DNA from: Flavobacterium galactosidilyticum
Lineage (GTDB): Bacteria > Bacteroidota > Bacteroidia > Flavobacteriales > Flavobacteriaceae
Direction of reading: 5' to 3'
Assembly: GCF_020911945.1 (NCBI RefSeq)
Contig: NZ_CP087135.1
Location: 3,466,396-3,530,395 of the forward strand
Length of the DNA: 64,000 nt
The translations under genes and the position numbers were made by a program. Positions 1 to 21,985 of the stretch are shown here, one piece after another; position 1 is the first letter of the stretch; each line of letters opens with the position of its first letter. The notes under the pieces were generated by a model. It had not been told where the DNA came from. It made no database searches and worked only from the letters and a program-made list of their open reading frames with translations.

Positions 1-625
1 CACTGGTAGTACAAGCTCCCGAAAGATTACCGTCAGCATCCAAAGCGATCATTCCAATAGTATCGTGATTTTCAATATTCGCAATGGGTTTATATTTACT
101 ATCTTTTAGCCATTCCTTCCATTCTTTTTCGGATTCTTCGGTCAATAAATTCTCCTTTTTAAACCCTTGCGATAAGGCAAATTGCAAAGCACCATCACCT
201 ACTAACATCACGTGTGGCGTTTTTTCCATAACAGCTCGCGCCACAGAAATAGGGTGTTTTATATTTTCCAAACAACCAACCGATCCTATATTAGATTGCT
301 CATCCATAATGCAAGAATCGAGCGTTACACGCCCGTCTCTATCAGGTCTTCCGCCGTAGCCCACGCTGCGTTCTTTTGGATCGCCCTCGGGAATTTTCAC
401 GCCAGCTTCTACAGCATCAAGTGCACGGCCTTTATTTTTCAATACTTCCCAAGCCGCTTCATTCGCTTGAATTCCGAAATTCCAAGTAGAAAGAACAATA
501 GGTTTCTTCCCTTTTTTGGAGCTAACGGTATTATTTTCTTCTTCAGACTTTACACCAAATGAATTTAATGCAACAGCCACCGAAGCCGCTGCAGCAGTCT
601 TTATAAAATTTCTACGATTACTCAT
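1..625 (-). CDS. Glycosylasparaginase (N4-(beta-N-acetylglucosaminyl)-L-asparaginase), C-terminus cut by window edge
   Basis: I read this frame by hand; it opens at ATG 625 and runs off the window after 208 codons, where the family has about 340. It starts MSNRRNFIKT, a twin-arginine-like export signal. It continues into an Ntn-hydrolase fold with YGGRPDRDGRVTLDS and HDTIGMIALD. The Asp188-Thr189 pair in the second motif is where this family cleaves itself, making Thr189 the N-terminal nucleophile. The enzyme hydrolyses the GlcNAc-Asn bond of N-glycoproteins, probably in the periplasm. It is the distal gene of the mannoside/N-glycan locus and would do the last step. The family call is firm; whether the missing C-terminus is intact is unknown. 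Confidence 0.88.
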   Translation of the reverse strand, partial: MSNRRNFIKTAAAASVAVALNSFGVKSEEENNTVSSKKGKKPIVLSTWNFGIQANEAAWEVLKNKGRALDAVEAGVKIPEGDPKERSVGYGGRPDRDGRVTLDSCIMDEQSNIGSVGCLENIKHPISVARAVMEKTPHVMLVGDGALQFALSQGFKKENLLTEESEKEWKEWLKDSKYKPIANIENHDTIGMIALDADGNLSGACTTS

Positions 626-662
626 CTTATTATTTTTAATTCATTAAAATCACATCTTAAAT

Positions 663-1592
663 CTAAAAACGAACAAATTTGTCATTAAAACATTCTTTAT
701 AAATCAAACTTGTAGCGCCCAATAAAGCTGCTATCTCATTATTAGAAGAAATGGTAACTTTTACATTGCAGCCTTGCTTTTTAATTTTATCCTCAAATGA
801 AGGTAAGAAAAAAGTACTTGCATTGGCAATTTTCCCACCAATTATAAAACTATCCGCTTCAAATATTTTTAGCCAAGGAGATACAATTGATCCTAAATCT
901 TCTCCAAATTTTTGAAATGCTTCAATAGCCAAATTATCTCCGGCTGTGGCCAAATTAAAAATTTCTAATCCAGTCTCAACTTTAGCTCCACTCAATTTAT
1001 AATAATTATTAATCAATCCACGGGCAGAAACATAATCCTCGGCTACGCTATCTTTATAAGAAGCATTGTATAATTCGCCATCTTTCGGTACATAATTACC
1101 TGTTGAAATTGCTTCTCCCTTTTCTATAAAACAAGCTCCCAATCCAGTTCCAAGTGTAACTGCCATTACCTTTTTCGTTCGGTTTTCAGCATTTTTAAAA
1201 ACTTCTCCTTTACCAAAACTATCGGCATCATTCTCAAAAAGAACCGGAAAATCATACGACAACTCAAGTCGGTCTTGAATTAATTTTCGAACATCTAATC
1301 CGTAAAAATGTTCGTATTTTGTTTGTCCCTTTATCCAACAAATTCCATTTCTGTAATCAAAAGGCCCCGGCATACAAACGGAAATCCCTGAAAACTCTCC
1401 GATTCCGGAGTTTTTCAATGATGTGCGAATCACTCGTTCCCAAATATCCATAACCTGATCAGCCTGAAGATTCGAATCAAATGATTCTTTATATAAAGAA
1501 GACTTAAGCACTTTCATATCATTAACAGCTATAATTCCAGCCGTGATATGGCTTCCACCTACATCTAATCCTATAGCGAATATATCTTTCAT
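663..1592 (-). CDS. ROK-family sugar kinase
   Basis: A 309-residue cytoplasmic protein with the ASKHA phosphate-binding segment LDVGGSHITAGI at the N-terminus, the ROK catalytic segment ENDADSFGKGE and the second nucleotide loop TLGTGLGACF. It probably phosphorylates a hexose released by the locus; mannose, glucose and GlcNAc are the obvious candidates. The CxCGxxGCxE zinc motif of classical ROK kinases is absent; its place is taken by the stretch KDGELYNASYKDSVAEDY. It lies 37 bp before the glycosylasparaginase and 128 bp after the GH20 gene on the same strand, so it is likely co-transcribed. The substrate cannot be read from the sequence. Confidence 0.85.
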   Translation of the reverse strand: MKDIFAIGLDVGGSHITAGIIAVNDMKVLKSSLYKESFDSNLQADQVMDIWERVIRTSLKNSGIGEFSGISVCMPGPFDYRNGICWIKGQTKYEHFYGLDVRKLIQDRLELSYDFPVLFENDADSFGKGEVFKNAENRTKKVMAVTLGTGLGACFIEKGEAISTGNYVPKDGELYNASYKDSVAEDYVSARGLINNYYKLSGAKVETGLEIFNLATAGDNLAIEAFQKFGEDLGSIVSPWLKIFEADSFIIGGKIANASTFFLPSFEDKIKKQGCNVKVTISSNNEIAALLGATSLIYKECFNDKFVRF

Positions 1593-1720
1593 TTATTCTT
1601 ATTAATTGTATGGTCCGCAAATGAAAATCTAATCTTTTTCAAATTAAACTCTCAGTATTGCATACCTATTTCTATACTCTCTATCTTATTTAAAAAATAC
1701 TAATTGATTTTAGTTCTCTA

Positions 1721-4030
1721 TTATTCTACAATAATTTCATCAACAAACAACCAAGCAGCTTGCTTCTCTCCTGGATGACCTACAGGACATTTTCCTAAAT
1801 TTTTAGCGGTAACACGAACTGCTTTTATCTTTTGTTCAGGAAATTTAGTCTTGAAATCTTGTATTTGTGTATCTCTGGCATCAACAGGAATTGTATTATT
1901 TACCGTTTTAATTTCTTTGAAATTAATTCCATCTACTGACACTTCAAACTTTACCCATTGTGGAAAAAACACCCATTGCGGCCAATTTTGAATTGTACCC
2001 AATGAAATACTACTTGCTAAAACTGGAGTTCCTAAATCAATTGTCGCAACCATATCATTTCCACTGAAACCATGCCACTGCTTGCCTATATCTTTAGTTC
2101 CTCTAAATCCGTCAGTCAAAGTATTAACACCATTTGCAGGATAATAACGACTGTTTACACTTTCGTATTTGACAGCTTTTCCTGTAGCTTTATTAAAAGT
2201 AAAAGATTGTTCAGCAGGCTTGGTATTCATCACTTTACCGTTCAAAGCCATTATAGCTTTTACAGTCATAGAAGTCGTTACTACAAAAGGTTTTTCATAT
2301 TTAGTACTTCCAATTGTTGGTACACTACCATCTGTTGTGTAATAAATTACGCCATCAGCATTCTCCGTTTCTAATGCTATAGAAAGTGAGTTGTTTGCAA
2401 CAATTGGTTTAATATCTACCTTATAATTCCCTTTAGAATAATGGAATCCTTTTTGCTCATAACCTACTAAATGAGGCTGTAAACGCTTGTTGAAATTCTC
2501 CCAATTGCGGCTTCCTTTTGAAGACCACAATACTTCTGCCAGTGCGGGCATACGAGGTAAGATCATATACTCAACATGTTCGTAAGTTGGAACATATTCC
2601 GTCCATAGATTCGCTTGAGACCCTAACACTCTTTTTCCTTCCTCCACAGTTAATTCTGCTGGAATTGGTTCGTAGTGATATACTTTTTTCAACGTATTAA
2701 AACCTCCAATTGCTAACGGCTCTGTTTCTGGATCACCTTGATAATGGTCAAAGTAAAGTGGGTAACCCGGTGTCATAATTACATCATGTCCCATTTTAGC
2801 GGCTTCAATTCCACCTGCCTCACCTTGCCAACTCATAACGGTAGCTTCTGGAGCCAATCCGCCTTCTAGGATTTCGTCCCAACCAATCATTTTTCTGTTT
2901 TTAGAAACGATGAATTTTTCCATTCGACGAATGAAATAACTCTGTAGTTCCTTTTCATCTTTCAAATTCTCCGTTTTCATTCTGGCTTGACATTTAGGAC
3001 AGTTTTTCCAGCTCTTTTTGTCAACTTCATCACCTCCAACGTGAATATATTTAGATGGAAAAATAGCCATTACCTCAACTAAAATATCCTGTAAAAAACC
3101 AAAAGCTTGGTCATTTCCTGCGCAATAATTACTTTCTACTTTAGAGGCTAAAAAATTACCTGACTGTGCAAATGTATTTTTAGGATTACAAGAAAGTTCT
3201 GGATAAGCAGCCATTGCAGCCTCAGAGTGACCTGGCATCTCGATTTCTGGAACTACGGTAATATTTCTTGCTTTGGCGTAAGCCACAATATCCTTAGCTT
3301 GCTCCTGTGTATAATACCCTCCGTAAGTCGATTTGCTTCTGTCCGCATTAAATTCTATTCCTGCCCAATCCCAAGGTTTCCCCCAATCCTCAACGCGCCA
3401 AGCAGCTTGTTGTGTCAATTTTGGATATTTTTTAATTTCTAAACGCCATCCTGCACCATCAACTAGATGCCAATGAAAAACATTCATTTTGTAAGTTGCC
3501 AATAAATCTATAAATTCCTTTACCAATTCAGTCGAAAAGAAATGGCGACTCACATCAAGCATCATTCCTCTCCATCCAAAACGTGGATAATCTTTGATTT
3601 CCATGCTTGGGATTTGTACCACATCATTAGTTCTTATAAAAGGCAACGTCTGTAGTAAAGATTGCACTCCGTAAAATAATCCTTTAGAAGAATTAGCTTT
3701 CACCAAAATCCCTTTTGGATTTACCGATATCAAATAGCCTTCGTCACCAATTTCTTTTATTTTTTCGATACTAAAAACAATCGCTTTCGCTTTAGGTTGA
3801 TTTGACTTTAAGGTAAAGCCAGTCACTTTATTTACATATTCTGTAAAAAAATGAACTACATCTGCAACAGCTTTATCGTTTTTTGGAAATTGAACCGTTG
3901 TATTATTATCCATTACAAAATTGCCTTCCTTCATTTCTAAACTCAACGGTTGTGGAATAATATGCACTGCTTGTTGCGCCTGCAGCAGCATCGTGAAGAG
4001 CAAACTGGCTATTAAAATTGTCTTTTTCAT
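1721..4030 (-). CDS. GH20 beta-N-acetylhexosaminidase, secreted
   Basis: A 769-residue protein with the signal peptide MKKTILIASLLFTMLLQAQQ. A GH20b N-terminal domain is followed by the GH20 barrel (about residues 150-500). The catalytic pair Asp334-Glu335 sits in HVGGDEVDK; family enzymes use substrate-assisted catalysis with the N-acetyl group. After the barrel come a chitobiase-type segment (YYTTDGSVPTIGSTKYEKPF) and a discoidin-like domain near the C-terminus, which could bind carbohydrate. It would remove beta-linked GlcNAc or GalNAc. Between beta-mannosidase and glycosylasparaginase in the same locus, the logical bond is GlcNAc-beta-1,4-GlcNAc of the N-glycan chitobiose core; chitin fragments are an alternative. 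Confidence 0.93.
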   Translation of the reverse strand: MKKTILIASLLFTMLLQAQQAVHIIPQPLSLEMKEGNFVMDNNTTVQFPKNDKAVADVVHFFTEYVNKVTGFTLKSNQPKAKAIVFSIEKIKEIGDEGYLISVNPKGILVKANSSKGLFYGVQSLLQTLPFIRTNDVVQIPSMEIKDYPRFGWRGMMLDVSRHFFSTELVKEFIDLLATYKMNVFHWHLVDGAGWRLEIKKYPKLTQQAAWRVEDWGKPWDWAGIEFNADRSKSTYGGYYTQEQAKDIVAYAKARNITVVPEIEMPGHSEAAMAAYPELSCNPKNTFAQSGNFLASKVESNYCAGNDQAFGFLQDILVEVMAIFPSKYIHVGGDEVDKKSWKNCPKCQARMKTENLKDEKELQSYFIRRMEKFIVSKNRKMIGWDEILEGGLAPEATVMSWQGEAGGIEAAKMGHDVIMTPGYPLYFDHYQGDPETEPLAIGGFNTLKKVYHYEPIPAELTVEEGKRVLGSQANLWTEYVPTYEHVEYMILPRMPALAEVLWSSKGSRNWENFNKRLQPHLVGYEQKGFHYSKGNYKVDIKPIVANNSLSIALETENADGVIYYTTDGSVPTIGSTKYEKPFVVTTSMTVKAIMALNGKVMNTKPAEQSFTFNKATGKAVKYESVNSRYYPANGVNTLTDGFRGTKDIGKQWHGFSGNDMVATIDLGTPVLASSISLGTIQNWPQWVFFPQWVKFEVSVDGINFKEIKTVNNTIPVDARDTQIQDFKTKFPEQKIKAVRVTAKNLGKCPVGHPGEKQAAWLFVDEIIVE

Positions 4031-4065
4031 TTTCTTTTATTTTTATTAATTCGTTTATTATTTCA

Positions 4066-4084
4066 TTTGCCACAAAGACGCAAA
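4066..4084. repeat. Short dispersed intergenic motif, copy 1
   Basis: TTTGCCACAAAGACGCAAA lies between the GH20 gene and the next upstream gene. A near-identical 19-mer (17 of 19 bases) occurs at 43882-43900, also between genes, and both are preceded by CA. It may be the remains of a small dispersed repeat; no function can be assigned. Confidence 0.4.
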
Positions 4085-4183
4085 TTTTAGATAATAGTTA
4101 CTTAGTGTATTAAAGTGGAAACCCAGTCAATTACCTGCTATCTTCGCGGATCTTTCGTGATTATACCTAATTATTATAAAATA

Positions 4184-5266
4184 TTATTTTAAAACCTCCG
4201 TGATTTCATTAGCAATTGGATGATCCGCTTTATAAGTATAGCCCAATAATTTAGCTATAGTTTGAGCGAACTGTTTTTGATAGATTTGTCCCTCTGTTTT
4301 GATTTCGCCTTTAGACTTAATATTTGGTCCCATTGCTGCAAACCAAATTTCTGAAGCGCCCTTGATCGAACTATCATGACTTGTCCATTGCCCTTTAATT
4401 ACATCACCACGACCATGATCTGTGGTGAAAATTAATGCTGTTTTGTTTCTATACTGAGGATCATTTTGCACATACTCCCAGATTTGCTTTATCCAAGCGT
4501 CCACCTGATGCGCCGCGTCTAAATACGAACGATACTTCCCAGCATGCGCCCACTCATCAGTTTCTCCGTATGCTATGTATAATACTTTTGGTTTATTAAT
4601 TTTTAGTTCTTCTAATGCACCGTAATGTGTAAAAATATCGAAACACTCCGCACCATGCCATGGTTTATAAGAATCAGCAAGCATATCATTAATCAATTTT
4701 TGACTTGCTGAAGGATTTTTTCCACCAATTGGATCAAAGGCCGAAATAACTGGAATTCCACTTCTTTTTTCGTTGAGAATTCTACCAAATGCTTCCCAGG
4801 CTCCAAAAGCGGCTATTTTGCCTTTCAGCTTTGGTTGTTGATTTAAAAACTCCAAAACAGTAACATGCGGATTGGGTTCATAACTATTAGAATTAATAGC
4901 GGGGTCAGGATAACCAGTCATAATCTCACTATATCCAGGATAGCTAAACCAATGTGGATTAGCGGTAGTAACCAAATTACCCAGCTTTCTATTTCCGTAT
5001 AATTGCCCCTTTGAAGCAAAAACGGACCACATAAAAGGCATTAATTTTTCTCGACGTTCCTGAATATTGTCACTCCAATATTTTTTAAAAATATAAGTAC
5101 TATCGCCCTCATTATATTTTTTATTATTTGCTATTTCAGGATCCATTCCTTGAAATAACTCTTGCCATCTGAGTCCGTCCGTAGTAATAACAATAATATT
5201 CTCTACCTGTTGAGCATTTATGATATTTCCAATAAAACATAGTAACAATAGTAAGATTTTTTTCAT
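4184..5266 (-). CDS. Alkaline-phosphatase-superfamily hydrolase (NPP/phosphodiesterase-like), secreted
   Basis: A 360-residue protein with the signal peptide MKKILLLLLCFIGNIINAQQ. The alkaline phosphatase fold shows in its metal-ligand motifs: IVITTDGLRW near the N-terminus, GETDEWAH mid-protein and IFTTDHGRGD toward the C-terminus. The likely nucleophile is the Ser/Thr region FSYPGYSEIMTG, placed like the nucleophile of nucleotide pyrophosphatases/phosphodiesterases. It would cleave phosphate mono- or diesters in the periplasm. Inside a mannoside locus it could act on phosphorylated glycans, but this is inferred from position only; a nucleotide or phospholipid substrate, or a sulfatase-like role, cannot be excluded. 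Confidence 0.75.
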   Translation of the reverse strand: MKKILLLLLCFIGNIINAQQVENIIVITTDGLRWQELFQGMDPEIANNKKYNEGDSTYIFKKYWSDNIQERREKLMPFMWSVFASKGQLYGNRKLGNLVTTANPHWFSYPGYSEIMTGYPDPAINSNSYEPNPHVTVLEFLNQQPKLKGKIAAFGAWEAFGRILNEKRSGIPVISAFDPIGGKNPSASQKLINDMLADSYKPWHGAECFDIFTHYGALEELKINKPKVLYIAYGETDEWAHAGKYRSYLDAAHQVDAWIKQIWEYVQNDPQYRNKTALIFTTDHGRGDVIKGQWTSHDSSIKGASEIWFAAMGPNIKSKGEIKTEGQIYQKQFAQTIAKLLGYTYKADHPIANEITEVLK

Positions 5267-5301
5267 TTCTTTATTTTTTTTTAAGTTCCTGATACGTTAT
5301 T

Positions 5302-6174
5302 TTATTTTTTCTCGTAAACTCTCACGTAGTCTACTAGAAACTGTTGTGGCAAAACGCTATCATCGATTGGTCCAGGCCAGTTGGCGCCCATTGCTAAATT
5401 CAGCAACAAATAAAACGGTTTTCGAAACGGATTGTCATCTCCTACTCCAGCCGAATCAATAGAAAAACTATGGTATTTATTGTTGTTGAAATAAACATCA
5501 ATCGTTTTCTCATTCCATTCTATCGCATACAAATGAAAATCATTTTTTAAATTTTCTGAAGTAATCTTATTTCCATTCGATTTATTTCCTTCAGCATTGG
5601 GATCTGGAAAATGCATAGTTCCATAAATATCTTTTGGCTGATTACCAATAAATTCCATAATATCAATCTCACCGCATTTGGGCCAACCCACTTCTGATCG
5701 ATTTGTTCCCATCATCCAGATTGCAGGCCATATTCCACCACCATGAGGAAGCTTAGCTTTGACCTCGATCCTTCCATATTTCCAACCTACTTTCCCCAGT
5801 GTATTAATACTCGCCGAAGTGTATTGTGCAGTAGAATCTTGTGTTTTCCAAGTTGGATTTTCTTTAGAATAAAATTCGTTTGGAAAACTTTCCTTTCTAC
5901 CTGTAATAGCTAAAACTCCTTTGCTTACCCACACATTCTCTTTTCTGGCATTGGTATAATATTGTTGTTCATTATTCCTAATGTGTCCTACTTCATAGCT
6001 CCACTTTTTAGGATTTGGAAGTCCGGTATAATTAAACTCTTCCTTCCAAACTAATTTCCATTTATCCTTTTTCTGAGCGTTTGAGGAAGTGCCAGCAATT
6101 AATATCAGCACAAGAAACAATCTGCTAATTAGCGTTGTTTTCTTATTTTTTAAATATTTATTTTTTAGGTTCAT
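5302..6174 (-). CDS. GH16 beta-glucanase (laminarinase-like), secreted
   Basis: A 290-residue single-domain protein with a signal peptide (hydrophobic core LFLVLILIAGTSS, then NAQ). The GH16 signature GEIDIMEFIG places the nucleophile at Glu169, the assisting Asp at 171 and the acid/base at Glu174. WKLVWKEEFNYTG at the start and PIWMMGTNRSEVGWPKCGEI before the active site are typical of the beta-1,3(4)-glucanase branch. It is the only endo-acting glucanase here and the only enzyme not aimed at mannose, GlcNAc or phosphate. It starts 35 bp upstream of the phosphodiesterase-like gene on the same strand. The family is certain; the exact linkage (beta-1,3, mixed or galactan) is not. Confidence 0.9.
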   Translation of the reverse strand: MNLKNKYLKNKKTTLISRLFLVLILIAGTSSNAQKKDKWKLVWKEEFNYTGLPNPKKWSYEVGHIRNNEQQYYTNARKENVWVSKGVLAITGRKESFPNEFYSKENPTWKTQDSTAQYTSASINTLGKVGWKYGRIEVKAKLPHGGGIWPAIWMMGTNRSEVGWPKCGEIDIMEFIGNQPKDIYGTMHFPDPNAEGNKSNGNKITSENLKNDFHLYAIEWNEKTIDVYFNNNKYHSFSIDSAGVGDDNPFRKPFYLLLNLAMGANWPGPIDDSVLPQQFLVDYVRVYEKK

Positions 6175-6228
6175 GTGATTTGGGGGTTATTTTTAACTTG
6201 CTTTTTAAACTTCAATAATCATCCAACT

Positions 6229-7695
6229 TTAAAAATTAAAATCCTTGTTACTTAATATTCTTGGATGATTGATACTTGTATTTACAATCAATTCTCCAAA
6301 CAAAGTATTTGCCCAAGCAAACCATTTACGTGTAAACTGCATCGCATCATCTTTATGGAAAGATTCATGCATAAAACCGGTATTAGCGTGGGTTTTTATC
6401 AACATACTAATACATTTTTTTATCTCCTCCTCATCCACGCTAGTGATGGCTCTTAGAATAATACTCATTGGCCAAATCGTATCCGTTCCTGTGTGTGGCC
6501 CTCCAACACCCTCACCGGCTTTTCCTTTATAAAAGAATGGATTATCCTCTGAAAGCACTAACTTTCTTGTATTGAGATACAATTCATCATCAGGAGCAAT
6601 CGCACCTAAATATGGCAATGACAATATAGAAGGAACATTTGCATCGTCCATCATGTGGAAACTTCCGTAACCATTAACCTCAAAGGCAATTATTTTTCCA
6701 AACTTTGGATGCTGAATAATTCCTTGCTCTTGCAACCCTTTTTCTACTTGAAGTCTTAATTCTTTGGATTTTCTAACCATTTCTTCGTCCTTCAATTTTG
6801 GTGAAGAAAACATCTCTTCTAAATAACCTAGTACTTCAATAGCAAACATATTGCTTGGAATCAAAAAGCCAAATAAAGTACTATCATCACTTGGTCTAAA
6901 CGTAGAAACAATCAATCCGCAGGGTTTTACAGGGTATCCATATCCACTTAACGGAACGCCGTCTGTAGCCCAAGCGGTAGTTCTTTGAAACGTATAAGGA
7001 CCTTTATTATCCCAACGTTGTTGCTCTTTGAATGTTTGCAACACTAGTCCCATTGCTATTTTCCAATCAGCATCAAACATACTGATATCGCCTGTATTTT
7101 TCCAGTACTCATGTGCCAATCGGATAGGATAACAAAGACTGTCAATCTCCCATTTACGCTCATGAATTCCCGGTTGCATCTTGGTCATGTCATTTTTCCA
7201 TTCGCTTATTTCATTAAAATCCTTGTAAAAAGCATTCGCATAAGGGTCTAAAATAATACATTTTGTTTGGCGGTTGATTACTCCTTTTATCAATTCGCGA
7301 AGTTTTGAATCTTCTTTGATAAAAGGTAAATAAGGCCAAATTTGAGCCGTACTATCACGCAACCACATTGCATCAATATCCCCAGTAATTACATAAGTAT
7401 CCGGTTTCCCGTCAATAATTTCAAAATCAACTGTGGTATCTAAAGTATTAGGGAAGCAGTTTTCGAATAACCAAGCCAATTCAGGATTAGCAATTTGTTT
7501 TTTGATTCGGATGATAGCCGCTTCGATTGCTTTACTAGTGAATTTTCTTTGTGCCAATGGCGGTCTGTTACTAACAAAATCTTTCATTGCAAAATTGAAA
7601 GCAGTTCCCTGCGAAGCAAAAACTTGCGATTGAATTGCCAATAAACCGGCTGATAAAATTCCTGTGTTTTTGATGAATTTTCTACGTGATTGCAT
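6229..7695 (-). CDS. GH125 exo-alpha-1,6-mannosidase, secreted
   Basis: A 488-residue protein beginning MQSRRKFIKNTGILSAG, a twin-arginine-like export signal. The rest matches GH125 (formerly DUF1237), metal-independent inverting alpha-mannosidases: AMWLRDSTAQIWPYLPF in the N-terminal third, TAWATDGVPLSGYGYPVKP and FRPSDD (residues 266-271) mid-protein, and GFMHESFHKDD near the C-terminus. Characterised members release alpha-1,6-linked mannose, as on the core of high-mannose N-glycans or the yeast mannan backbone. It starts one base downstream of the GH92 stop codon, so the two are surely one transcript and complementary in linkage. Confidence 0.92.
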   Translation of the reverse strand: MQSRRKFIKNTGILSAGLLAIQSQVFASQGTAFNFAMKDFVSNRPPLAQRKFTSKAIEAAIIRIKKQIANPELAWLFENCFPNTLDTTVDFEIIDGKPDTYVITGDIDAMWLRDSTAQIWPYLPFIKEDSKLRELIKGVINRQTKCIILDPYANAFYKDFNEISEWKNDMTKMQPGIHERKWEIDSLCYPIRLAHEYWKNTGDISMFDADWKIAMGLVLQTFKEQQRWDNKGPYTFQRTTAWATDGVPLSGYGYPVKPCGLIVSTFRPSDDSTLFGFLIPSNMFAIEVLGYLEEMFSSPKLKDEEMVRKSKELRLQVEKGLQEQGIIQHPKFGKIIAFEVNGYGSFHMMDDANVPSILSLPYLGAIAPDDELYLNTRKLVLSEDNPFFYKGKAGEGVGGPHTGTDTIWPMSIILRAITSVDEEEIKKCISMLIKTHANTGFMHESFHKDDAMQFTRKWFAWANTLFGELIVNTSINHPRILSNKDFNF

Positions 7696-10935: not shown

Positions 10936-10987
10936 ACAAGGTATACTCTTTGCAAAATTCATACTTCTAATTTTTAATTAAGAATAA

Positions 10988-13264: not shown

Positions 13265-13384
13265 TATTCTTTATTTTAATATTAATAACTGTTAGCATTT
13301 TTAAACTACTAAAAAAATGAAACCATTAAAAAGAGTAATCGAAATTAAACCCTAATTTTCTTAATGGATCAATCGTTTATTCAT

Positions 13385-15382
13385 TTATTTGTATCTATTG
13401 AGAACGTCATATAATGACATCACACTAATAATTGGCTTATTTATTTTACCTTCAAACGAAATTTTTATTTCTTTTCCAGCCTCTAAATCCATATAATTAT
13501 CAGTTAGTTTTCCAGTATAACCCTCAATTTCTATATAAACATATTTAGCTGCTTTGGTAGCTTTTAAAGTAATTTCATTTCCTTTAATTTTCCAAGTAAT
13601 ATTCGGATTTTCCAATGGTAAATCGATTGGTCGGGTTAAGTCAATTTCTGGAACAATATCATCTCGATAGGCTTCTCTCATAGCGTACCAAGCAGCTTTT
13701 GGTTGGCGATTGTAATAATCAGTGACACTCCAACTCGTTGCAGGCCAACAATCGTTAAGCTGCCAAACTAAAGTTCCCATATTAAAAGGCGCTTTGGAAC
13801 GGTGAATTCCAATGATATTTTTAAGCGAATAATATTGCAAACACTGCGTCAAATAAGTATAATCTTTCACATTCATTTTTTCCACTTTAGTGGAGTCAAT
13901 AAAATAGCGATTCAAATAGGAGTTCAGTTTCATAAAACCATTCCCTGCTTTTTGATGCGCTTTTAACACATCTGAAAATAAATGGCGGTCTTCTGGATTG
14001 GTAAACTTTTTAATGGTCGAATAATTTGGCATTGCTTGCATTCCGTATTCACTCACAAAACGACCTGTTCTATTTTTATTATCTTCAATATCAGCTAATC
14101 CCCACCAAGTTCCCCAATAGTGGCTATCACCTTCCGTATAACTTTTCTCTCTTCCCCAACCAAATAATGGTGAACTACTAATATAAGGTCTTGTTGGATC
14201 AACTTCCTTTACCCATTTAGGAATACTATCCTGAAACAAACGCACATAATCTTTCCACATGCGAGTAGAATCTTGTTTGGACATTTTCATCGATTTTTGC
14301 CAACCCCAGTTGTTGAAGGCTTCATCGATTTCATTATTTCCGCACCATAAAACAATACTCTTATGATGGCGCAAACGCTTTACTTGGTATTTCACTTCTT
14401 CTTTAACATTGTCAAAAAAAGCGTCGTCACCGGGAACCATTGCTCCCGCAAACATAAAATCCTGCCAAACATTAATACCATATTTATCGCATAAATCATA
14501 AAAATAATCATCTTCATAAATACCGCCACCCCAAACGCGAAGCATGTTCATATTAGCATCTTTGGCTGATAAAACTACTTTCTCATATTCTTTTTTAGTC
14601 ACTCTCGAAAGCAAAGCATCCGATGGAATATAATTGGCGCCTTTCATATAAACCGGCTTTCCATCAATTTTAAAATAAAATGATTTTCCGAGGCTATCAG
14701 GTTGCTGTACCAATTCAATTTTACGAGTAGGAATAAATTCTTTCTCCTTTGGTTTCACATTATAAGCTTCCAATCGAACTTCTTTCCAAACACCACAAGT
14801 AGTTAATTTTGGTCCCCAATCCCAACCAAAATGGTATGGTGCTTTACGCACATACAAACGAGGATTGTCCGGAAGTACATATGGCAGATCTTTCTTAGCT
14901 AATGAATCAACTACATTTTGCGCCGATTGAAATACAATTTGCAATTGATTGTCTCCAGAACGCAAAATAGATTTTACATCAGTTCTCCATTGACGAAACA
15001 TATTGTCTGCTTTCAAAACTAATTTTCCATTTAGATAAACAGTTGCATAAGTGTCTAGTCCGTCAAAAACTAATTCTGCATGCTTATTTTTTAAGGTTGC
15101 CGGCGTTACCGAAAAAGAAGTTTTATATTCCCAATTCTCTTTTTCCACCCATTGCACTTTTTTCTCGTTGTCACGGAAATAAGGATCTGGAATCATTTTG
15201 TTATTCAACAAATCCGTGTGAACCTCCCCAGGAACAGTGGCTCCATTCCATTTGGCAGTTCCCTGCTGACGAAATTGCCAACCTTTTTTTATAACAACTG
15301 TATTGTTTTGAGCATTAACTCCCAACGAAAAATGGGTTAAGCAAATGAACAAAAACCAGTAAAATCCTTTTATGTTTTTCAT
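13385..15382 (-). CDS. GH2 beta-mannosidase lacking two accessory domains, secreted
   Basis: The start is taken at ATG 15382, which begins directly with the signal peptide MKNIKGFYWFLFICLTHFS; an in-frame ATG at 15409 adds nine residues. An N-terminal GH2 sandwich (GWQFRQQGTAKWNGATVPGE to GVWKEVRLEAYN) leads into the catalytic barrel (GKPVYMKGANYIPSD). Glu351 in WCGNNEIDEA is the acid/base and Glu445 in FVSEYGMQ the nucleophile. The enzyme would cleave the Man-beta-1,4-GlcNAc bond of the N-glycan core. At 665 residues it is about 150-200 shorter than usual. The sandwich joins the barrel through only KPKEKEFIPTRKIELVQ, and the barrel joins the last Ig-like domain through EIDLTRPIDLPLENP, so domains 2 and 4 seem missing, both in frame. 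Confidence 0.88.
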   Translation of the reverse strand: MKNIKGFYWFLFICLTHFSLGVNAQNNTVVIKKGWQFRQQGTAKWNGATVPGEVHTDLLNNKMIPDPYFRDNEKKVQWVEKENWEYKTSFSVTPATLKNKHAELVFDGLDTYATVYLNGKLVLKADNMFRQWRTDVKSILRSGDNQLQIVFQSAQNVVDSLAKKDLPYVLPDNPRLYVRKAPYHFGWDWGPKLTTCGVWKEVRLEAYNVKPKEKEFIPTRKIELVQQPDSLGKSFYFKIDGKPVYMKGANYIPSDALLSRVTKKEYEKVVLSAKDANMNMLRVWGGGIYEDDYFYDLCDKYGINVWQDFMFAGAMVPGDDAFFDNVKEEVKYQVKRLRHHKSIVLWCGNNEIDEAFNNWGWQKSMKMSKQDSTRMWKDYVRLFQDSIPKWVKEVDPTRPYISSSPLFGWGREKSYTEGDSHYWGTWWGLADIEDNKNRTGRFVSEYGMQAMPNYSTIKKFTNPEDRHLFSDVLKAHQKAGNGFMKLNSYLNRYFIDSTKVEKMNVKDYTYLTQCLQYYSLKNIIGIHRSKAPFNMGTLVWQLNDCWPATSWSVTDYYNRQPKAAWYAMREAYRDDIVPEIDLTRPIDLPLENPNITWKIKGNEITLKATKAAKYVYIEIEGYTGKLTDNYMDLEAGKEIKISFEGKINKPIISVMSLYDVLNRYK

Positions 15383-15436
15383 TATTGTCGCATTTTTAAA
15401 ATTATGCAATATCTACAATTAGTAGATTTTTTTTTC

Positions 15437-15444
15437 CAAATTTA
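15437..15444 (-). promoter_or_regulatory. Possible -7 element for the enzyme operon
   Basis: On the minus strand this reads TAAATTTG, matching the Bacteroidota TAnnTTTG consensus, 55 bases before the chosen beta-mannosidase start. No TTG is seen at the expected -33 spacing, so this is tentative. The rest of 15445-15660 is AT-rich with nothing recognisable. Confidence 0.3.
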
Positions 15445-15665: not shown

Positions 15666-15698
15666 AAATAAGCCGGGTAGAAACTACCCGACTTATTT
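15666..15698 (-). terminator. Rho-independent terminator after susD
   Basis: A 15-bp stem (one mismatch) with a 3-base loop; the arms are CTACCCGACTTATTT and its near complement. On the minus strand it ends in a T-rich run. It sits 30 bp after the susD stop and separates susCD from the enzyme genes. Confidence 0.85.
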
Positions 15699-15727
15699 CA
15701 AACTAACTCTAAATAAAAACCAAATAT

Positions 15728-17632
15728 TTATTTTTTAGCCCACCATAATGGGGTGAAAACATCATCAGCACCGCCTAAGAATCCTACTGCTTGCGCATAT
15801 CCTGCAGCATTTGAATTTCTCAATCCAGAAGGATATTTCAAACGTTGTGGGAAAAATTTAACTTGATTGCTCATGAAATTTCCACTAGTCAAAACAGGCA
15901 TATTAGGCAAAGGAACTTCGACTGCTGGATTTTCAAAGAAAGGCAATCCTAACCTTCTGTGATCACTCCATGCTTCTAAAGGTAACCATGGCATTTGCGA
16001 TATGAATTTTTGCGTAATAATTTTTGTCAACAAATCGTTTTTTACCGTACCATTTTTATAAATAGTATTGTTTGGGTACAAAATTGTTGCCACACCAGCT
16101 GCATTTGTATAACCATCTTTATAGTCCATTGTATGACTTGCAGGTGGTTCAGTAGTGTGGGTCCAACTTACAGAAGTACCAGTTCTATTATAATCTGACG
16201 AAGCAAGATAAGCACCTAGATGAGATGAAACTCCCCAGTATGCAAAGTTAGATTTGATTCCTTCTTCATAAGCATCTTTACCAGTCATAGGAACTGCCCA
16301 GCCTTTTACAGCAGCTTCAGCTAGTAAAAAGTAAGTTTCCCATGGTGCAAAAAAGATACGTTGACTAGTACTTCCTCTAAACTGCTGAGACATACGAGGC
16401 ATCGTTCCATTAAAGCTACGCACTTGATTAGTACTCCCTAATGTTCCCCAATCTCCAGCTGCAAAAGCATTCCAAGTATTTTTAGCATCAATTGTTTTTA
16501 CTACAGCTCCTGTACCATCTAGTAAATCTCTTGATGTTGTTTTTGAACTATTATCCCAAGAAGGATATCCTGAAAAAACTGGGCTAGTAAAATCACCAGG
16601 AATATTAAATGTTTTATAAGCACGAGGATCAATTTTATTAGGTAAACCATCTAACCAATAACCTGCACCAGGCTCATTAGTTTTCATTGAAAAATGATTA
16701 GCAAATTTTAATCCAATGTAATTTGCAGGTTTTACACTTGCATGAAAAGAACTTGCCAATTGATCTGTAGAATTTATTCCTCCCAATCCAATATAAAGAT
16801 TATTTAATGTTGCTGACATGATTTGTTCATTCCATTCACGACTCATTACTCCTGACAAATCGTCCCAACCTGGTCTTTCTTGAACTTTAAATGTATCATC
16901 AACTTCTTTTAACAGAACTCCTGCTGCTGCATCTTCAAACTCTGCTTTAGCTTTAGCTGGATCAACTTCAGATAAACGCATCGCTAAACGCAAACGCATT
17001 GAATTAGCATATTTTTTCCATTTACTGTAATCATATCCGTAAGCTGGATCTCCAGCACTTAATCCACTTGGATTAACTACTGCAACATCTAATTTAGTAG
17101 AAGCATCTTTTAACTCTGCTAACAAAAAATAATAAACGTCTTTTACAGTATTAAACTGAGGATTAGTCCCTTGAAATGCTTCAATAGCAATTGGTCCGAA
17201 ATTATCCGATAGTTCACTCATCAAATAAACTCTCCAGATACGAGCTATTTGAATTAGGTTTTGCGAGTATACTTTCACATCCCCTTTAGCTTGTTTCTCT
17301 TGAGCAACTTCAATAGCAGTATTAGCCGCATTCAACCAGTTTGAACTATAATTATAATATTCGCTTGACCAACCATCATCAGCAGTTCCGCCAGAAATAC
17401 CAGTTCTTAACATTTGATGTCCTGTCGTTTTCCAATACAAAACAAAAGACCTTTCAGCAATATTTGGATCTTGTTGTGCTCCAATGATTGATTTATTAAT
17501 GAAATACTCAATTTGTACTTGATCAGCACTTGCAGCATTAGGGTCTTTATTGATTTCTTCGAAATCTGAACAAGAGGCCAGCATTGCAACCGCTGTCAAC
17601 GCCAGACCAGATTTTTTAAATATATTTTTCAT
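15728..17632 (-). CDS. SusD/RagB-family glycan-binding lipoprotein
   Basis: A 634-residue lipoprotein. The lipobox LASC puts the lipidated Cys at residue 21, followed by SDFEEINKDPN, the usual opening of the SusD-like family. TPR-like helices include YWKTTGHQMLRTGISGG and WKKYANSMRLRLAMRLSEVD; the C-terminus carries EAWSDHRRLGLPFFENP. SusD proteins lie on the outer face of the outer membrane and close over the SusC channel to capture glycans. The gene follows susC by 22 bp and ends at a strong terminator. Its ligand is inferred from the adjacent mannosidases. Confidence 0.93.
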   Translation of the reverse strand: MKNIFKKSGLALTAVAMLASCSDFEEINKDPNAASADQVQIEYFINKSIIGAQQDPNIAERSFVLYWKTTGHQMLRTGISGGTADDGWSSEYYNYSSNWLNAANTAIEVAQEKQAKGDVKVYSQNLIQIARIWRVYLMSELSDNFGPIAIEAFQGTNPQFNTVKDVYYFLLAELKDASTKLDVAVVNPSGLSAGDPAYGYDYSKWKKYANSMRLRLAMRLSEVDPAKAKAEFEDAAAGVLLKEVDDTFKVQERPGWDDLSGVMSREWNEQIMSATLNNLYIGLGGINSTDQLASSFHASVKPANYIGLKFANHFSMKTNEPGAGYWLDGLPNKIDPRAYKTFNIPGDFTSPVFSGYPSWDNSSKTTSRDLLDGTGAVVKTIDAKNTWNAFAAGDWGTLGSTNQVRSFNGTMPRMSQQFRGSTSQRIFFAPWETYFLLAEAAVKGWAVPMTGKDAYEEGIKSNFAYWGVSSHLGAYLASSDYNRTGTSVSWTHTTEPPASHTMDYKDGYTNAAGVATILYPNNTIYKNGTVKNDLLTKIITQKFISQMPWLPLEAWSDHRRLGLPFFENPAVEVPLPNMPVLTSGNFMSNQVKFFPQRLKYPSGLRNSNAAGYAQAVGFLGGADDVFTPLWWAKK

Positions 17633-17654
17633 GTTATATTTTTTTTTAATTTTA

Positions 17655-20600
17655 TTAAAAACTCACTGTAAGATTCATCAAGAAAGTACGAGTTGTTGGT
17701 GCTCCACCATTTTCAAAACCTACTGCATTAGTACCCGTTGCGTAAACAGATTCTGGATCAAGCCCATTCATGTGACTTTTAATCATCCAAACATTATTAC
17801 AAGAAAATCCAATTTGAGCCTTCTGAACTGCAATTTTACTTAATATTTGTGATGGGAAATTGTAGTTAAGCTGCACATTTCTTAAACGAACATTAGAAGC
17901 ATCATAAATATTAGCTTCAGTAACTCCAAGATTACCACTTCCTGCTACTCTATTCCAATACAATTGAGGACTAACTGCCTTTGTGTTTTGAACATAACTG
18001 TTACCGCTCATTACAACACCATTAGCTATCATATCAGCTCTTGATCCATTCACAACAGTTTCAGATGAAGTTCCTGCTAACTGCATTCCTGCCAAAGTTC
18101 CTGAAAATATTTCTCCTCCAATTCTTGCATCAATTTGAAAAGATAATGAAACTGCCTTGTAAGCAAAACTGTTTGTAAATCCAAGCATCGCCTTAGCCTG
18201 TTGATTTCCTAAACGAACAATTTTTGAATCAACAAGTGGTAACCCATTATTATCTACTATAATTTCTCCAAATGAAGGACTTGTTTCATCCGCAACTCTT
18301 AAAAATTGAGAACCATAAATTTCTCCATACGCTTTTCCTACTTCAGCAAAAACAGAAACATTGTCGAATCCGCCTAAAGGATATTGTGATACATCTTGGT
18401 ATAATGAAACAATTTTACTTTTGTTAGTAGAAAAATTAAATTGTGTATTCCAAGTCAATGAACTAGCATCAGTTAATATTTTTCCATCCAATGTTACCTC
18501 AACTCCAGAATTCTGAATATCACCAGCATTTATTTTCTTGAAATTATAACCACTCAATGGATCCATAGGAAGATTAATCAATTGATTAGTTGCGTTAGAT
18601 TTATAAACAGATACATCAAGACCAAGTCTGCTTTTGAAAAAACGAAGTTCAGCTCCAAACTCAGTAGATTTAATTAATTCACTTTTCACATTTGGATCAA
18701 ACAATGTTTTCCCTCTTGATGAAGTTAAATTACCATTTGGATCTTTGTCTATGTAATAAACATTATACAATTGATAAGGCTCAAGATCATTACCTACTGA
18801 TGCGTAACTTGCTCTTAACTTTCCATAAGAAAACCAGTCAGGCAAATTGACATCCATACTATTTAGCATATCAGTAAATACATAAGAAAGACTTAAAGAT
18901 GGATAAAAGAAAGAACGATTTGCTTTGCTTAAAGAAGAAGACCAATCATTTCTAAAAGTAGCATCAAGGTATAAATAACCATCATAGTTAATTTGAGCCG
19001 ATCCAAATACAGAATTAATTGATTTGTTATAAATATTCTCTTCAGCAAAAGTATTTCCTAAAAAGTTCTTTACAGAGAAGTAGTCAGGAACAAGAAGTTC
19101 ACCATTTCTAACAATTAAAGAAGATGATTTACGATCCATCAAGTTTCCTCCTAAAGTTGCCATACCTCCAAATTTACCAAAAAGATCATCTTTTTTAGCT
19201 ATTAATAAAGCCTGGTAATTAGTCTCCATAAAAGTTCCTTTAGAAGTACCATATCTACCTGTGTTAGGAGCTAGAGGGCTTCCAGCGTATGTTTTTTCAT
19301 AGGTAGTATTCGTGTACATGTCAGCACCACCTTTAATTTCAGCGTTAAGCCAGTTGTTAACTTCATATTTCAAAGACGCATTCATCATAAAACGATCTCG
19401 TACGTCTTGATTAAGTTTATATTTGCTAGCCCAATATGGGTTAATTGCACTACCGCTACCATACCAAAGCATTTTCCCATTAGCATCAGTCGCATCTTTA
19501 AACTGAGTAATATCTAATGATGTTGGAAAAACATTTAATAGTGAAAATGGGTTACTACTGTTAGCGCCATTTGAAGTTCTATTATTGGCTTTTGCATTAG
19601 TATATTGTACTTTAGTATCTAAAGTCCAACGATCAGTATCTCCAAATTTAGTTAGCGCTTTAGCCATTAAATTCGTTCTAGCTAATCGAGCTCCAGGAAT
19701 CATGCTCTCGTCTTCCATTCGGTTCAAAGAGGCATAAATAGAAGTTTTTTGGACTGCTTGCTGAAAAGATATACTATTGTTTTTAGTAATTCCAGCACTA
19801 TTGAAGTAATTTTCCACGTTGTCGTAAGAACGTAATTGCTCAGTAGCACCATTCCAGTTTGTTACATTTTGTCCTTCAATTTTAGGTCCCCAACTTAAAC
19901 CTGAAAGCGGTTCAAAAAGATTATTATTACCTTGACCATAACTACTTTGCAGTTTAGGCTTAGTAAAAATACTTTCAAAACCAAGTGAAGAAGAAACAGT
20001 GATTCCTAAACCTTTCTGTTTCTTACCTGATTTAGTAGTAATTAAAATCACACCATTACCTGCCCTAGATCCATAAAGCGCTGATGCAGATGGCCCTTTT
20101 AAAACCGAAAGACTTTCGATATCTTCTGGATTGATGTCTGATATACCATTACCCATATCAAAACTTGGGTTCCAATAATCATTGTTAGATGCTCCTGTAA
20201 AGTTATCCATAGGAACTCCATCTACAACAATTAAAGGTTGGTTATCACCTGTTAAGGAATTAAAACCTCTTAACACTAATTTAGACGAACCACCTGGACC
20301 AGCACTTGATTTTACTACTTGTAAACCAGCTACTTTTCCGCTTAAAGCGTTAGCAATGTTGGGTTCTCTAGCTTCAACTAAACTTTGACCTTTAATTTCT
20401 TGAACTGCATAACCTAAAGATTTTTTCTGCTTTTTGATACCTAAAGCCGTTACAACAACCTCTCCTAGCTCCTGAGTACTTTCTGCTAAAACGATAGTAA
20501 TATTACTTTCACCTGCGGCAACATCTACTGATTTAGAAATAAAACCAACTGATGATACTGCCAGAGTAGTTTTACCTGCGGGAACGCTTATGGTAAACTT

Positions 20601-20777
20601 CCCGTTAAAATCTGTAATGGTACTAATGGACACTCCTTTTACCTTTATGGTAGCGGAAACAACTCCCTTGTTGTCCGCATCTGCGACTACGCCCGTTATA
20701 GACCTGTTTTGCGCAACTGCACTAAGGCAGCTAAACAACACCAATCCTAACACTGCTAAAATTCGTTTCATAAGCAT
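17655..20777 (-). CDS. SusC/RagA-family TonB-dependent outer-membrane transporter
   Basis: A 1040-residue protein with a signal peptide (ILAVLGLVLFSCLSAVAQ). It has a carboxypeptidase-regulatory-like N-terminal domain (SITGVVADADNKGVVSATI to about residue 100), the TonB-interaction stretch LGEVVVTALGIKKQKK, a plug domain (ALSGKVAGLQVVKSSAGPGG, LIVVDGVPMDN) and a C-terminal beta-barrel ending in LMNLTVSF. It imports oligosaccharides captured by the SusD partner. It is first in the operon, and a 16-bp palindrome lies 123 bp upstream. Confidence 0.95.
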   Translation of the reverse strand: MLMKRILAVLGLVLFSCLSAVAQNRSITGVVADADNKGVVSATIKVKGVSISTITDFNGKFTISVPAGKTTLAVSSVGFISKSVDVAAGESNITIVLAESTQELGEVVVTALGIKKQKKSLGYAVQEIKGQSLVEAREPNIANALSGKVAGLQVVKSSAGPGGSSKLVLRGFNSLTGDNQPLIVVDGVPMDNFTGASNNDYWNPSFDMGNGISDINPEDIESLSVLKGPSASALYGSRAGNGVILITTKSGKKQKGLGITVSSSLGFESIFTKPKLQSSYGQGNNNLFEPLSGLSWGPKIEGQNVTNWNGATEQLRSYDNVENYFNSAGITKNNSISFQQAVQKTSIYASLNRMEDESMIPGARLARTNLMAKALTKFGDTDRWTLDTKVQYTNAKANNRTSNGANSSNPFSLLNVFPTSLDITQFKDATDANGKMLWYGSGSAINPYWASKYKLNQDVRDRFMMNASLKYEVNNWLNAEIKGGADMYTNTTYEKTYAGSPLAPNTGRYGTSKGTFMETNYQALLIAKKDDLFGKFGGMATLGGNLMDRKSSSLIVRNGELLVPDYFSVKNFLGNTFAEENIYNKSINSVFGSAQINYDGYLYLDATFRNDWSSSLSKANRSFFYPSLSLSYVFTDMLNSMDVNLPDWFSYGKLRASYASVGNDLEPYQLYNVYYIDKDPNGNLTSSRGKTLFDPNVKSELIKSTEFGAELRFFKSRLGLDVSVYKSNATNQLINLPMDPLSGYNFKKINAGDIQNSGVEVTLDGKILTDASSLTWNTQFNFSTNKSKIVSLYQDVSQYPLGGFDNVSVFAEVGKAYGEIYGSQFLRVADETSPSFGEIIVDNNGLPLVDSKIVRLGNQQAKAMLGFTNSFAYKAVSLSFQIDARIGGEIFSGTLAGMQLAGTSSETVVNGSRADMIANGVVMSGNSYVQNTKAVSPQLYWNRVAGSGNLGVTEANIYDASNVRLRNVQLNYNFPSQILSKIAVQKAQIGFSCNNVWMIKSHMNGLDPESVYATGTNAVGFENGGAPTTRTFLMNLTVSF

Positions 20778-20899
20778 TTGTTTTTTTTAGTTTTTGTTTT
20801 TGGTTTGTAAAAAATATTGATAAAAAATTTGAACTCAATTTTAGTGTACATTTTAGCAATCTCTATCTTTTTAAAAATTTGATTAACTTTTAAAAAACT

Positions 20900-20915
20900 A
20901 CTAAAACGTTTTAGT
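20900..20915. promoter_or_regulatory. Probable LacI-family operator before susC
   Basis: ACTAAAACGTTTTAGT is a perfect 16-bp palindrome with a central CG, the usual architecture of LacI-family operators. It lies between susC and the LacI-type gene. Its half-site CGTTTTAG recurs at 22040-22047 upstream of the LacI gene itself. Confidence 0.7.
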
Positions 20916-20974
20916 GTTTCAACAAAAAAATAGAAAATCTTCTTTTTTAAAATTAAAAATACTTTAACTTAAAA

Positions 20975-21985
20975 CTATACGGATTCTCTTATTACTAATT
21001 TCCCTTTTTGAAGCACCTTTTCAACAACAGCATCATTTTCATTTGTAATTTGCTTCATTAGCAAATCAACCGCTTTAACCGCAATCGTGTTTATAGGCTG
21101 CTCTACCACTGTAATAGCAGGCGAATGCAATCTAAAACTATAATGATCATCATAACTAATGATTGATAAATCTTCTGGCATTTTAATTCCCATTCTATGA
21201 AAAGCCTGAAGTCCCGCTAGTCCCATATAATTTGCTAGAAAAAGCACACCATCAATACTTTTATTATTTTCAAAAAAACGAATTACCTCTTCTACTTTTT
21301 CTTCTTCCGTACTATGATAATTGATATGTAGGACAAGATCTCCATTATAAAGACCCGCTTTTTTCATCGCATCGATATAACCGTTTTCTCTTGATTGCAT
21401 TTGGATCATACCAGAATTATTATTAATTACAGCGATATTGCGTCGTCCTTTTTCAATCAAAAGTTCAGTTGCAATATAAGCACCTTCATAATTATTCATA
21501 ACTACATGACTAACCTCTTGATCTGGGAAATACCTGTCGATTAAAACCACCGGTATTTTCATTTTTAAAAGCTGACCAATACTTTTCTCTAAATTCTCTG
21601 TAGGCGTGATAATAAAACCATCTACATTAGCCTGAAGCAAACTTTGTATCAACTCTGCAGCTCGGTCATCGTCATTATCTGTACTACAATAAAAAACTCT
21701 ATACCCTAACTTTCCAGCTTCTTCCTCAATTCCTTTGGCAAGGACTGAAAAAAATTGATTAGATATATTTTCAATGATAAGACCTATCGATCTTGTTTTG
21801 CCGGTCCTAAGACTCGTTGCTGTCATATTAGGTCGATAGTTTAATTTTTCAACTATATCTTGTACCTTTTTAATGACTGCCGCACTAATTCCCATTTTCT
21901 CTCCTTTATCGTTAAGCACAAAAGAAACGGTAGAGATAGAAACTCTTGCCTCAATTGCAATATCTTTAATGGTGATTTTTTTCAT
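20975..21985 (-). CDS. LacI-family transcriptional regulator
   Basis: A 336-residue protein. An N-terminal LacI helix-turn-helix (ITIKDIAIEARVSISTVSFV, about residues 3-22) and hinge (LNYRPNMTATSLRTGKTRSIG) are followed by a periplasmic-binding-protein-like effector domain (IGLIIENISNQFFSVLAKGI to the end). It is first on the strand of the locus, 197 bp ahead of susC, so it most likely represses or activates the glycan genes in response to a released sugar. Many Bacteroidota glycan loci use hybrid two-component or sigma/anti-sigma regulators instead; none is seen here. Confidence 0.92.
   Translation of the reverse strand: MKKITIKDIAIEARVSISTVSFVLNDKGEKMGISAAVIKKVQDIVEKLNYRPNMTATSLRTGKTRSIGLIIENISNQFFSVLAKGIEEEAGKLGYRVFYCSTDNDDDRAAELIQSLLQANVDGFIITPTENLEKSIGQLLKMKIPVVLIDRYFPDQEVSHVVMNNYEGAYIATELLIEKGRRNIAVINNNSGMIQMQSRENGYIDAMKKAGLYNGDLVLHINYHSTEEEKVEEVIRFFENNKSIDGVLFLANYMGLAGLQAFHRMGIKMPEDLSIISYDDHYSFRLHSPAITVVEQPINTIAVKAVDLLMKQITNENDAVVEKVLQKGKLVIRESV

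Follow-up and report, generated by a model that had tools for sequence, protein, structure and literature searches.

Breakdown of N-glycans in animal lysosomes relies on exo-glycosidases and an aspartylglucosaminidase, mostly from enzyme families other than those considered here. Among bacteria, the high-mannose N-glycan operon of Bacteroides thetaiotaomicron combines the glycoside hydrolase (GH) family 18 protein BT3987 with three GH92 proteins (PMC10154615), and Elizabethkingia meningoseptica possesses PNGase F, PNGase F-II, Endo F1-F3 and a glycosylasparaginase (PMC10154615, PMC6960285). The PNGaseRz operon brings together PNGaseRz, fucosidases, a mannosidase, a GH18 protein and "an asparaginase" (PMC12381499). 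The alf-2 cluster of Lactobacillus casei encodes AlfC, SugK and AsnA2, a bacterial glycosylasparaginase through which glyco-asparagine can be fed on and which shares 28% identity with its E. meningoseptica counterpart (PMC6960285). Here we analyze a polysaccharide utilization locus (PUL) lying at one end of a 64,000-nucleotide stretch of the Flavobacterium galactosidilyticum genome (hereafter the window; C1:3466396-3530395 in a single-contig genome of 3,530,395 bases), in which exo-acting mannosidase genes and a gene for a predicted glycosylasparaginase (AGA) share the minus strand. On the evidence presented below, we regard it as a probable N-glycan utilization locus of flavobacterial type, directed at mannose-rich glycans.

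A sequence-only reading of the window had placed two GH92 genes, GH125, GH2, GH20 and a glycosylasparaginase on one strand behind susCD, and profile searches recovered all of them at the same place and on the same strand. It had overlooked an endonuclease/exonuclease/phosphatase-fold (EEP) gene, a GH16 gene, an NPP-like gene, a ROK gene and, past the window edge, CutC. The locus, all of it on the minus strand, begins with LacI on the right and continues leftwards with SusC, SusD, GH2, GH92-B, Exo_endo_phos (EEP), GH92-A, GH125, GH16, metalloenzyme (NPP-like), GH20, ROK and AGA; its genes are given here in the order of their coordinates, preceded by CutC.

C1:3465337-3466020 (L067:1338-2021), past the window edge, minus strand: CutC (PF03932), 1 base downstream of AGA
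1..625, continuing on the genome to C1:3466022 (L067:2023-3021), minus strand: predicted glycosylasparaginase (AGA), 208 N-terminal residues in the window, 332 residues whole
663..1592, minus strand: ROK family sugar kinase, no signal peptide by eye
1721..4030, minus strand: GH20 beta-N-acetylhexosaminidase with accessory domains at the C-terminus (409.1 bits)
4184..5266, minus strand: metalloenzyme/phosphodiesterase (NPP-like) superfamily protein, with weak PDB matches
5302..6174, minus strand: GH16 protein closest to laminarinases and beta-glucanases by profile and PDB matches, with an EIDIME motif
6229..7695, minus strand: GH125 (alpha-1,6-mannosidase family; 555.8 bits), Tat-like signal by eye
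7697..9982, minus strand: GH92-A (574.5 bits), best PDB match 2wvx (BT3990)
10084..10962, minus strand: EEP (Exo_endo_phos) protein related to 4c1r, "mannosyl-6-phosphatase"
10988..13264, minus strand: GH92-B (601.3 bits), nearest to 7zgm and 6f8z, HE pair absent
13385..15409, minus strand: GH2 beta-mannosidase of 674 residues, aligned to BtMan2A (2je8; 514 bits)
15728..17632, minus strand: SusD-like lipoprotein, by profile match
17655..20777, minus strand: SusC-like TonB-dependent transporter, by profile match
20975..21985, minus strand: LacI family regulator, by profile match

From SusC to CutC, successive genes are separated by only 22, 318, 120, 25, 101, 1, 54, 35, 153, 128, 37 and 1 bases, which makes a single transcription unit plausible; a scan for promoters and terminators gave no excess over shuffled sequences (67 against a mean of 75.0, and 4 against 10.4).

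The locus resembles the B. thetaiotaomicron operon in its SusCD pair, in having GH92 proteins of predicted alpha1,2 and alpha1,3 types and in encoding, with GH92-A, a relative of BT3990. It departs from high-mannose PULs of that type in lacking a GH18 endo-beta-N-acetylglucosaminidase within the locus and in carrying GH125, GH2, GH20, AGA, CutC, EEP and GH16 genes. BT3990 is one of the three GH92 proteins of the B. thetaiotaomicron operon, where import is of the SusCD type. As in E. meningoseptica, a PNGase F-II type enzyme and AGA occur in one genome, but here no Endo F-type gene was found with PF00704 and PF16141, and an exo-acting PUL stands beside AGA. The PNGaseRz operon likewise sets a mannosidase and an asparaginase-type enzyme in an N-glycan locus, but there PNGase and GH18 lie inside the operon and here neither lies inside the locus. 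The alf-2 cluster shares the combination of a glycosylasparaginase with a sugar kinase for glyco-asparagine; unlike the present locus, it is cytosolic and directed at fucosyl-GlcNAc-Asn (where GlcNAc stands for N-acetylglucosamine), and the accessible text of its description names no mannosidase. Unlike animal lysosomes, moreover, this genome also encodes a PNGase. The gut Bacteroides loci to which the locus had initially been compared are not its nearest relatives, as closer counterparts of AGA occur in named Flavobacterium species, with matches of up to 91% along its full length and of 94% over residues 50-332 in F. araucananum.

The assignment of the mannosidases draws on conserved residues and on the nearest structures. 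GH92-A, which matches BT3990 (2wvx) with 1202 bits, retains in common with it the SPW and IHE motifs, which we take to be the +1-subsite Trp, His and Glu of GH92 alpha1,2-mannosidases, and by this residue criterion it would be an alpha1,2-mannosidase. The underlying rule calls for a Trp from the N-domain and a His and a Glu from the C-domain, and the same source describes 7zgm and 6f8z, the best PDB matches of GH92-B, as alpha1,3-mannosidases (PMC9522356). In GH92-B the SPW and IHE motifs are both missing at the aligned places, and its putative alpha1,3 type follows these nearest structures, no +1 motif shared by alpha1,3 enzymes being known. GH125 proteins are alpha1,6-specific as characterized so far (PMC10154615). 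The GH2 protein presents the WCGNNE and SEYG motifs and leaves out two segments of BtMan2A, each some 100 residues long (residues 201-301 and about 661-757); this domain loss rests on the BtMan2A alignment, whose third piece is not significant alone, and on protein lengths, and PF17753 supports the C-terminal domain. The same short form (662-664 residues, 77-80% identity) recurs in six corresponding rows of named Flavobacterium genomes, which points to a conserved compact beta-mannosidase. The GH2 proteins found beside CutC measure mostly 820-864 residues, six frames in four loci being shorter pieces. A structure model of GH2 (mean pLDDT of 42) was too poor to show the fold.

The best PDB match of AGA is 3ljq, an N4-(beta-N-acetylglucosaminyl)-L-asparaginase (533 bits over residues 40-329), and its match to isoaspartyl peptidases reaches 144 bits against the 533 to crystallized glycosylasparaginases. 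An HDT (His-Asp-Thr) autocleavage motif stands at residue 187 and a Tat-like RR signal was recognized by eye. With homology along its full length and the HDT motif, AGA has the sequence hallmarks of a glycosylasparaginase (EC 3.5.1.26). Enzymes of this kind act on a single asparagine, whereas PNGases need more than two peptide residues (PMC6960285).

Against the observed background of gene families, gene order, motifs and genomic presence or absence by the profiles used, we infer linkage specificities, cellular locations, order of action and roles for ROK and CutC as follows. The SusCD pair would import glycans, glycopeptides or glyco-asparagine. Once in the periplasm, these would lose alpha1,2-mannose to GH92-A, alpha1,3-mannose to GH92-B, alpha1,6-mannose to GH125, the core beta-mannose to GH2 and the outer GlcNAc to GH20, and AGA would split the GlcNAc-Asn remaining once proteolysis has freed the asparagine. 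A PNGase F-II homologue encoded elsewhere in the genome would free glycans, probably core-fucosylated ones, from larger peptides, with AGA completing what the PNGase cannot reach. ROK would phosphorylate a released sugar, and CutC, coupled to AGA, would probably handle a product of the AGA step in the cytosol. Such a locus would offer, ready-made in nature, the enzymes that could degrade high-mannose glycans as far as the asparagine, and would represent a layout of exo enzymes closed by a glycosylasparaginase that stands beside the known layouts with GH18 or PNGase. As far as the searchable literature goes, a PUL of exo-mannosidases, core glycosidases and AGA without a releasing enzyme is new: no match for a glycosylasparaginase with polysaccharide utilization was obtained in the literature searched, from which most subscription journals are missing.

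The genomic context of AGA in other bacteria is consistent with this proposal. A scan of a genome collection yielded at least 584 relatives (at least 592 stretches), and the loci of the best 80 named ones were labelled by the best BLAST match of each neighbour to a reference set, some of these loci being cut by contig ends. The set acting on the Man-GlcNAc2-Asn core is well represented within four genes of AGA, with GH2 in 49 and GH20 in 44 of the 80 loci, and this favors an N-glycan role; CutC is found at that distance in 66 (immediately adjoining AGA in 55), GH92-B type genes in 15, GH125 and ROK in 10 each and GH92-A in 7. GH18 appears in a single locus and the reference-set PNGase in none. 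Eight Flavobacterium sister loci, hand-picked from the 80 (L069, L072, L075, L076, L077, L088, L090 and L102), present the row GH92-GH92-GH125-ROK-AGA, headed by GH2 in six; L076 and L102 start inside GH92-B. Next to GH125 in L076, from Flavobacterium sp. A45, the NPP-like protein (4184-5266) is kept at 76%. A contig titled as a Bifidobacterium breve MAG (L087) shows a GH20-AGA-CutC-GH2 row with an AGA 86% identical to that of the window, and is probably a mislabelled or contaminated bin.

Within the family, GH125 was detected in 14 of 199 genomes, that of the window included; of these 14, five carry a PF00704 GH18 and seven a member of the PNGase F family, the genome of the window being counted in both. 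When the surroundings of GH125 (up to 40 kb) were mapped in the remaining 13 genomes, AGA turned up in G133 and G117, and the G133 row unites AGA with GH18, PNGase, two GH20-like and three GH92 frames. Where the contigs bearing PNGase and GH18 were mapped, AGA, GH20, GH92, PNGase and GH18 were found together, spanning no more than about 28 kb in G127 and about 17 kb in G013. That AGA shares its locus with PNGase and GH18 in these three relatives (G133, G127 and G013) indicates that it complements glycan-releasing enzymes there, as judged from gene content.

Several observations, on the other hand, weigh against an N-glycan role for the locus as a whole. In F. glaciei (L068) and F. tiangeerense (L082), an S9 peptidase (91% and 86%) and KAS III (93% and 92%) are followed by AGA, directly in L082 and after two small opposite-strand frames in L068; in L068 CutC directly abuts AGA, whereas in L082 it is absent from this position. 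The outer genes of this site (HSP90, OmpA and ABC types; on the other flank, ArgS, Ffh and FolD types) were compared by their order and size, and agree in both. The 21-kb PUL (663-21985) is absent between KAS III and AGA in both genomes, a junction that points to either an insertion in the genome studied here or a loss in F. glaciei and F. tiangeerense. AGA genes are hence not tied to the exo set, since they can occupy this chromosomal position where the PUL is missing, so that AGA may be a mere neighbor here. The PNGase gene is found towards the opposite end of the contig, about 0.21 Mb away if the chromosome is circular, and its neighbors are on the opposite strand; PNGase and PUL may therefore not be under common control. 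No lipobox was seen by eye and no type IX secretion system (T9SS) tail was detected by Pfam scans on the glycosidases of the locus, which leaves a cell-surface step unexplained. Finally, a fungal cell wall as target would account for the EEP, GH16 and NPP-like genes no less well than N-glycans.

This last point leads to the alternative that survives best, one that is possible but that we would not expect to hold: a locus for fungal mannoprotein or alpha-mannan, in which the GH92 proteins, GH125 and the phosphatase-like EEP would strip phosphomannan side chains and GH16 would cut the attached beta-glucan, AGA being incidental. GH92, GH125 and phosphatases do cooperate on yeast mannan in B. thetaiotaomicron, and a Salegentibacter operon carries GH76, GH92, GH2, GH125 and GH43 (PMC10154615). 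The EEP protein matches 3g6s (223 bits), 3mpr (158 bits) and the "mannosyl-6-phosphatase" 4c1r (158 bits), and GH16, whose PDB matches are a GH16 entry and laminarinases, is nearest to the latter, but EEP, GH16 and NPP-like genes are all absent from seven of the eight sister rows, and L076 has EEP and NPP-like genes with no GH16. Neither GH76 nor GH99 turned up among the proteins scanned in the locus and to its left, the search for them being confined to these. An assignment of the two GH92 proteins as mannose-1-phosphate enzymes of the CcMan5 type was ruled out, both retaining Glu at the general acid place where CcMan5 has Gln. Although the occurrence of AGA at the same site without the PUL would suit a fungal target, GH20 and the GH2 beta-mannosidase would serve the core of an N-glycan.

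An unlikely alternative is the purely exo, lysosome-like route for high-mannose glycans, in which imported glycopeptides would be trimmed by GH92, GH125, GH2 and GH20 and finished by AGA, with no internal cut or release. The sequence-only reading had proposed this route on seeing neither GH18 nor GH85 in the window, an observation that was correct and extends to the genome: profile searches returned no GH85 and no BT1044-type GH18 (PF16141), the sensitivity of PF00704 and PF16141 across Endo F enzymes at large being untried. PF00704 detected one GH18 of 362 residues at C1:2455872, about 1 Mb from the locus. It was rejected as an Endo F type, as the best 60 of its 139 PDB matches are mostly chitinases or chitotriosidases and it sits with SusCD and GH20. 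An endoglycosidase just left of base 1 had been named as the point to check, and none figures among the genes scanned there, which comprise CutC, a second PUL, an outer-membrane protein and ArgS, Ffh and FolD; in the next 20 kb (20 open reading frames of at least 150 residues) two proteins were Pfam-scanned, the genome-wide searches serving as the test in that region.

The claim gave way, nonetheless, at the level of the organism. A genome search with PF09113 found one gene (C1:173551; C1:172306 for the full-length homologue), whose 558-residue product is a full-length homologue of PNGase F-II, an amidase type that releases N-glycans intact (671 bits to 4r4z), with PF22252, PF09112 and PF09113 all above cut-off and YDR and GHGGWGNGDEF motifs that fit the aromatic-D-positive and His/Glu loops described in PMC12381499; its domains and substrate-binding motifs assign it to PNGase F-II. 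An organism encoding such a homologue cannot be termed purely exo, in the sense of having no GH18 endo enzyme, GH85 or PNGase. What stands of the ordered exo dismantling is the family set for Man9GlcNAc2-Asn, with AGA closing the row. For the E. meningoseptica PNGase F-II, a requirement for core alpha1,3-fucose has been reported (PMC12381499), which a review extends to either alpha1,3- or alpha1,6-linked core fucose (PMC10154615), and unfucosylated high-mannose glycans may by analogy still depend on the exo route. The eight sister rows lend this some support, the PNGase F family being present in two of their genomes with no match in the other six (genome completeness not being stated), but no GH20 is labelled inside any of these rows (in L076 one follows beyond AGA, on the opposite strand), so that the chitobiose step would take place elsewhere. 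GH18 genes, moreover, occur in all eight genomes. By length, motif and eye these are mostly chitinase- or polysaccharide-synthase-like: some resemble the chitinase-like GH18 of the genome studied here, and others are double-domain proteins of about 1600 residues, 6xyz chitinase types or long fusions apparently comprising a deacetylase and a glycosyltransferase; a 545-residue CBM6/T9SS type has no known target and a 429-residue frame is unplaced. A 340-residue GH18 of Flavobacterium sp. 245 belongs to the 6xyz "candidate chitinase" type (543 bits). The association of AGA with PNGase and GH18 in three relatives also speaks against an exo-only route, and the searches left out GH163, PNGase A and H+ types and unknown families, as well as GH85 in the eight sister genomes. 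Very improbable, lastly, is that AGA acts as a beta-aspartyl peptide hydrolase or has a general housekeeping role on GlcNAc-Asn that is independent of the PUL, for although 83 of 176 AGA genomes lack GH92 and the PUL is missing at the KAS III-AGA site of two genomes, its far higher score to glycosylasparaginases than to isoaspartyl peptidases and the frequency of GH20 and GH2 among its neighbors argue otherwise.

Within the favored reading of the locus as one for mannose-rich N-glycans, CutC, a family member by PF03932 profile and by fold, deserves separate consideration. The CutC, AGA and GH92 searches are taken to cover the same 395 Bacteroidota genomes, as their number and handles agree; at most five AGA candidates were scored per genome, and kinship between genomes was handled only by counting families and genera. 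On this basis, 114 of the 124 CutC genomes carry AGA, with an odds ratio of 38 against 4 for GH92 with AGA. The association holds both in GH92-free genomes (AGA in 39/40 with CutC versus 44/215 without) and in GH92 genomes (75/84 versus 18/56), and a mere echo of GH92 was accordingly rejected as its sole cause. Among 30 CutC loci fetched, AGA adjoins CutC in 15 and is one gene off in another. Counting against the association, 62 AGA genomes lack CutC, the two genes do not lie within 10 kb of each other in 48 of the 98 genomes with both and with listed AGA positions, and CutC was also detected in the Escherichia coli, Lactococcus lactis and Caulobacter controls. We regard CutC as a candidate partner in GlcNAc-Asn catabolism.

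A bolder proposal, to which we grant only a small chance, is that CutC is at heart a GlcNAc-Asn catabolic enzyme and not a copper protein, hydrolyzing or rearranging 1-amino-GlcNAc or its 6-phosphate, perhaps after ROK. CutC is a TIM barrel, and its nearest non-CutC folds act on phosphorylated sugars, including PRAI/TrpF, which handles a phosphoribosyl-amine. Near neutral pH, 1-amino-GlcNAc decays only slowly. This product of AGA is a glycosylamine unstable at acid pH (PMC6960285). Its decay being spontaneous tells against the proposal, as do the L. casei pathway, described without CutC, the AGA genomes devoid of CutC and the presence of CutC in E. coli. If true, a corresponding function is also conceivable in the human cytosol, a site of glycosylamine formation by NGLY1. 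The copper phenotype of E. coli cutC mutants is attributed to the loss of the small RNA MicL. MicL is encoded in the cutC region and is therefore lost in a cutC deletion (PMC8216713). For human CUTC, a review deems a copper chaperone role "unlikely", yet considers that all the evidence available places the protein in copper homeostasis, as its silencing raises copper sensitivity (PMC11083455); in the CutC of the Syn3.0 minimal cell an essential cysteine is missing, and the metal bound may be a different one (PMC4993169). The literature on CutC as a copper homeostasis protein is hence mixed, and no paper naming aspartylglucosaminidase together with CutC was found in the literature searched, where few subscription journals figure; a single proteomics paper matched an asparaginase along with CutC. 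For a family that has been reported in organisms as different as humans and a mycoplasma-derived minimal cell, and whose precise function has yet to be settled, the tie with AGA provides a concrete, testable lead.

Just past CutC lies the second PUL (L003:9510-17916), made up of a sigma-70-like factor, FecR, SusC, SusD and a GH16-like gene. Its SusC is split into two overlapping frames (L003:14678-15961 and 12490-14688), likely through a frameshift.

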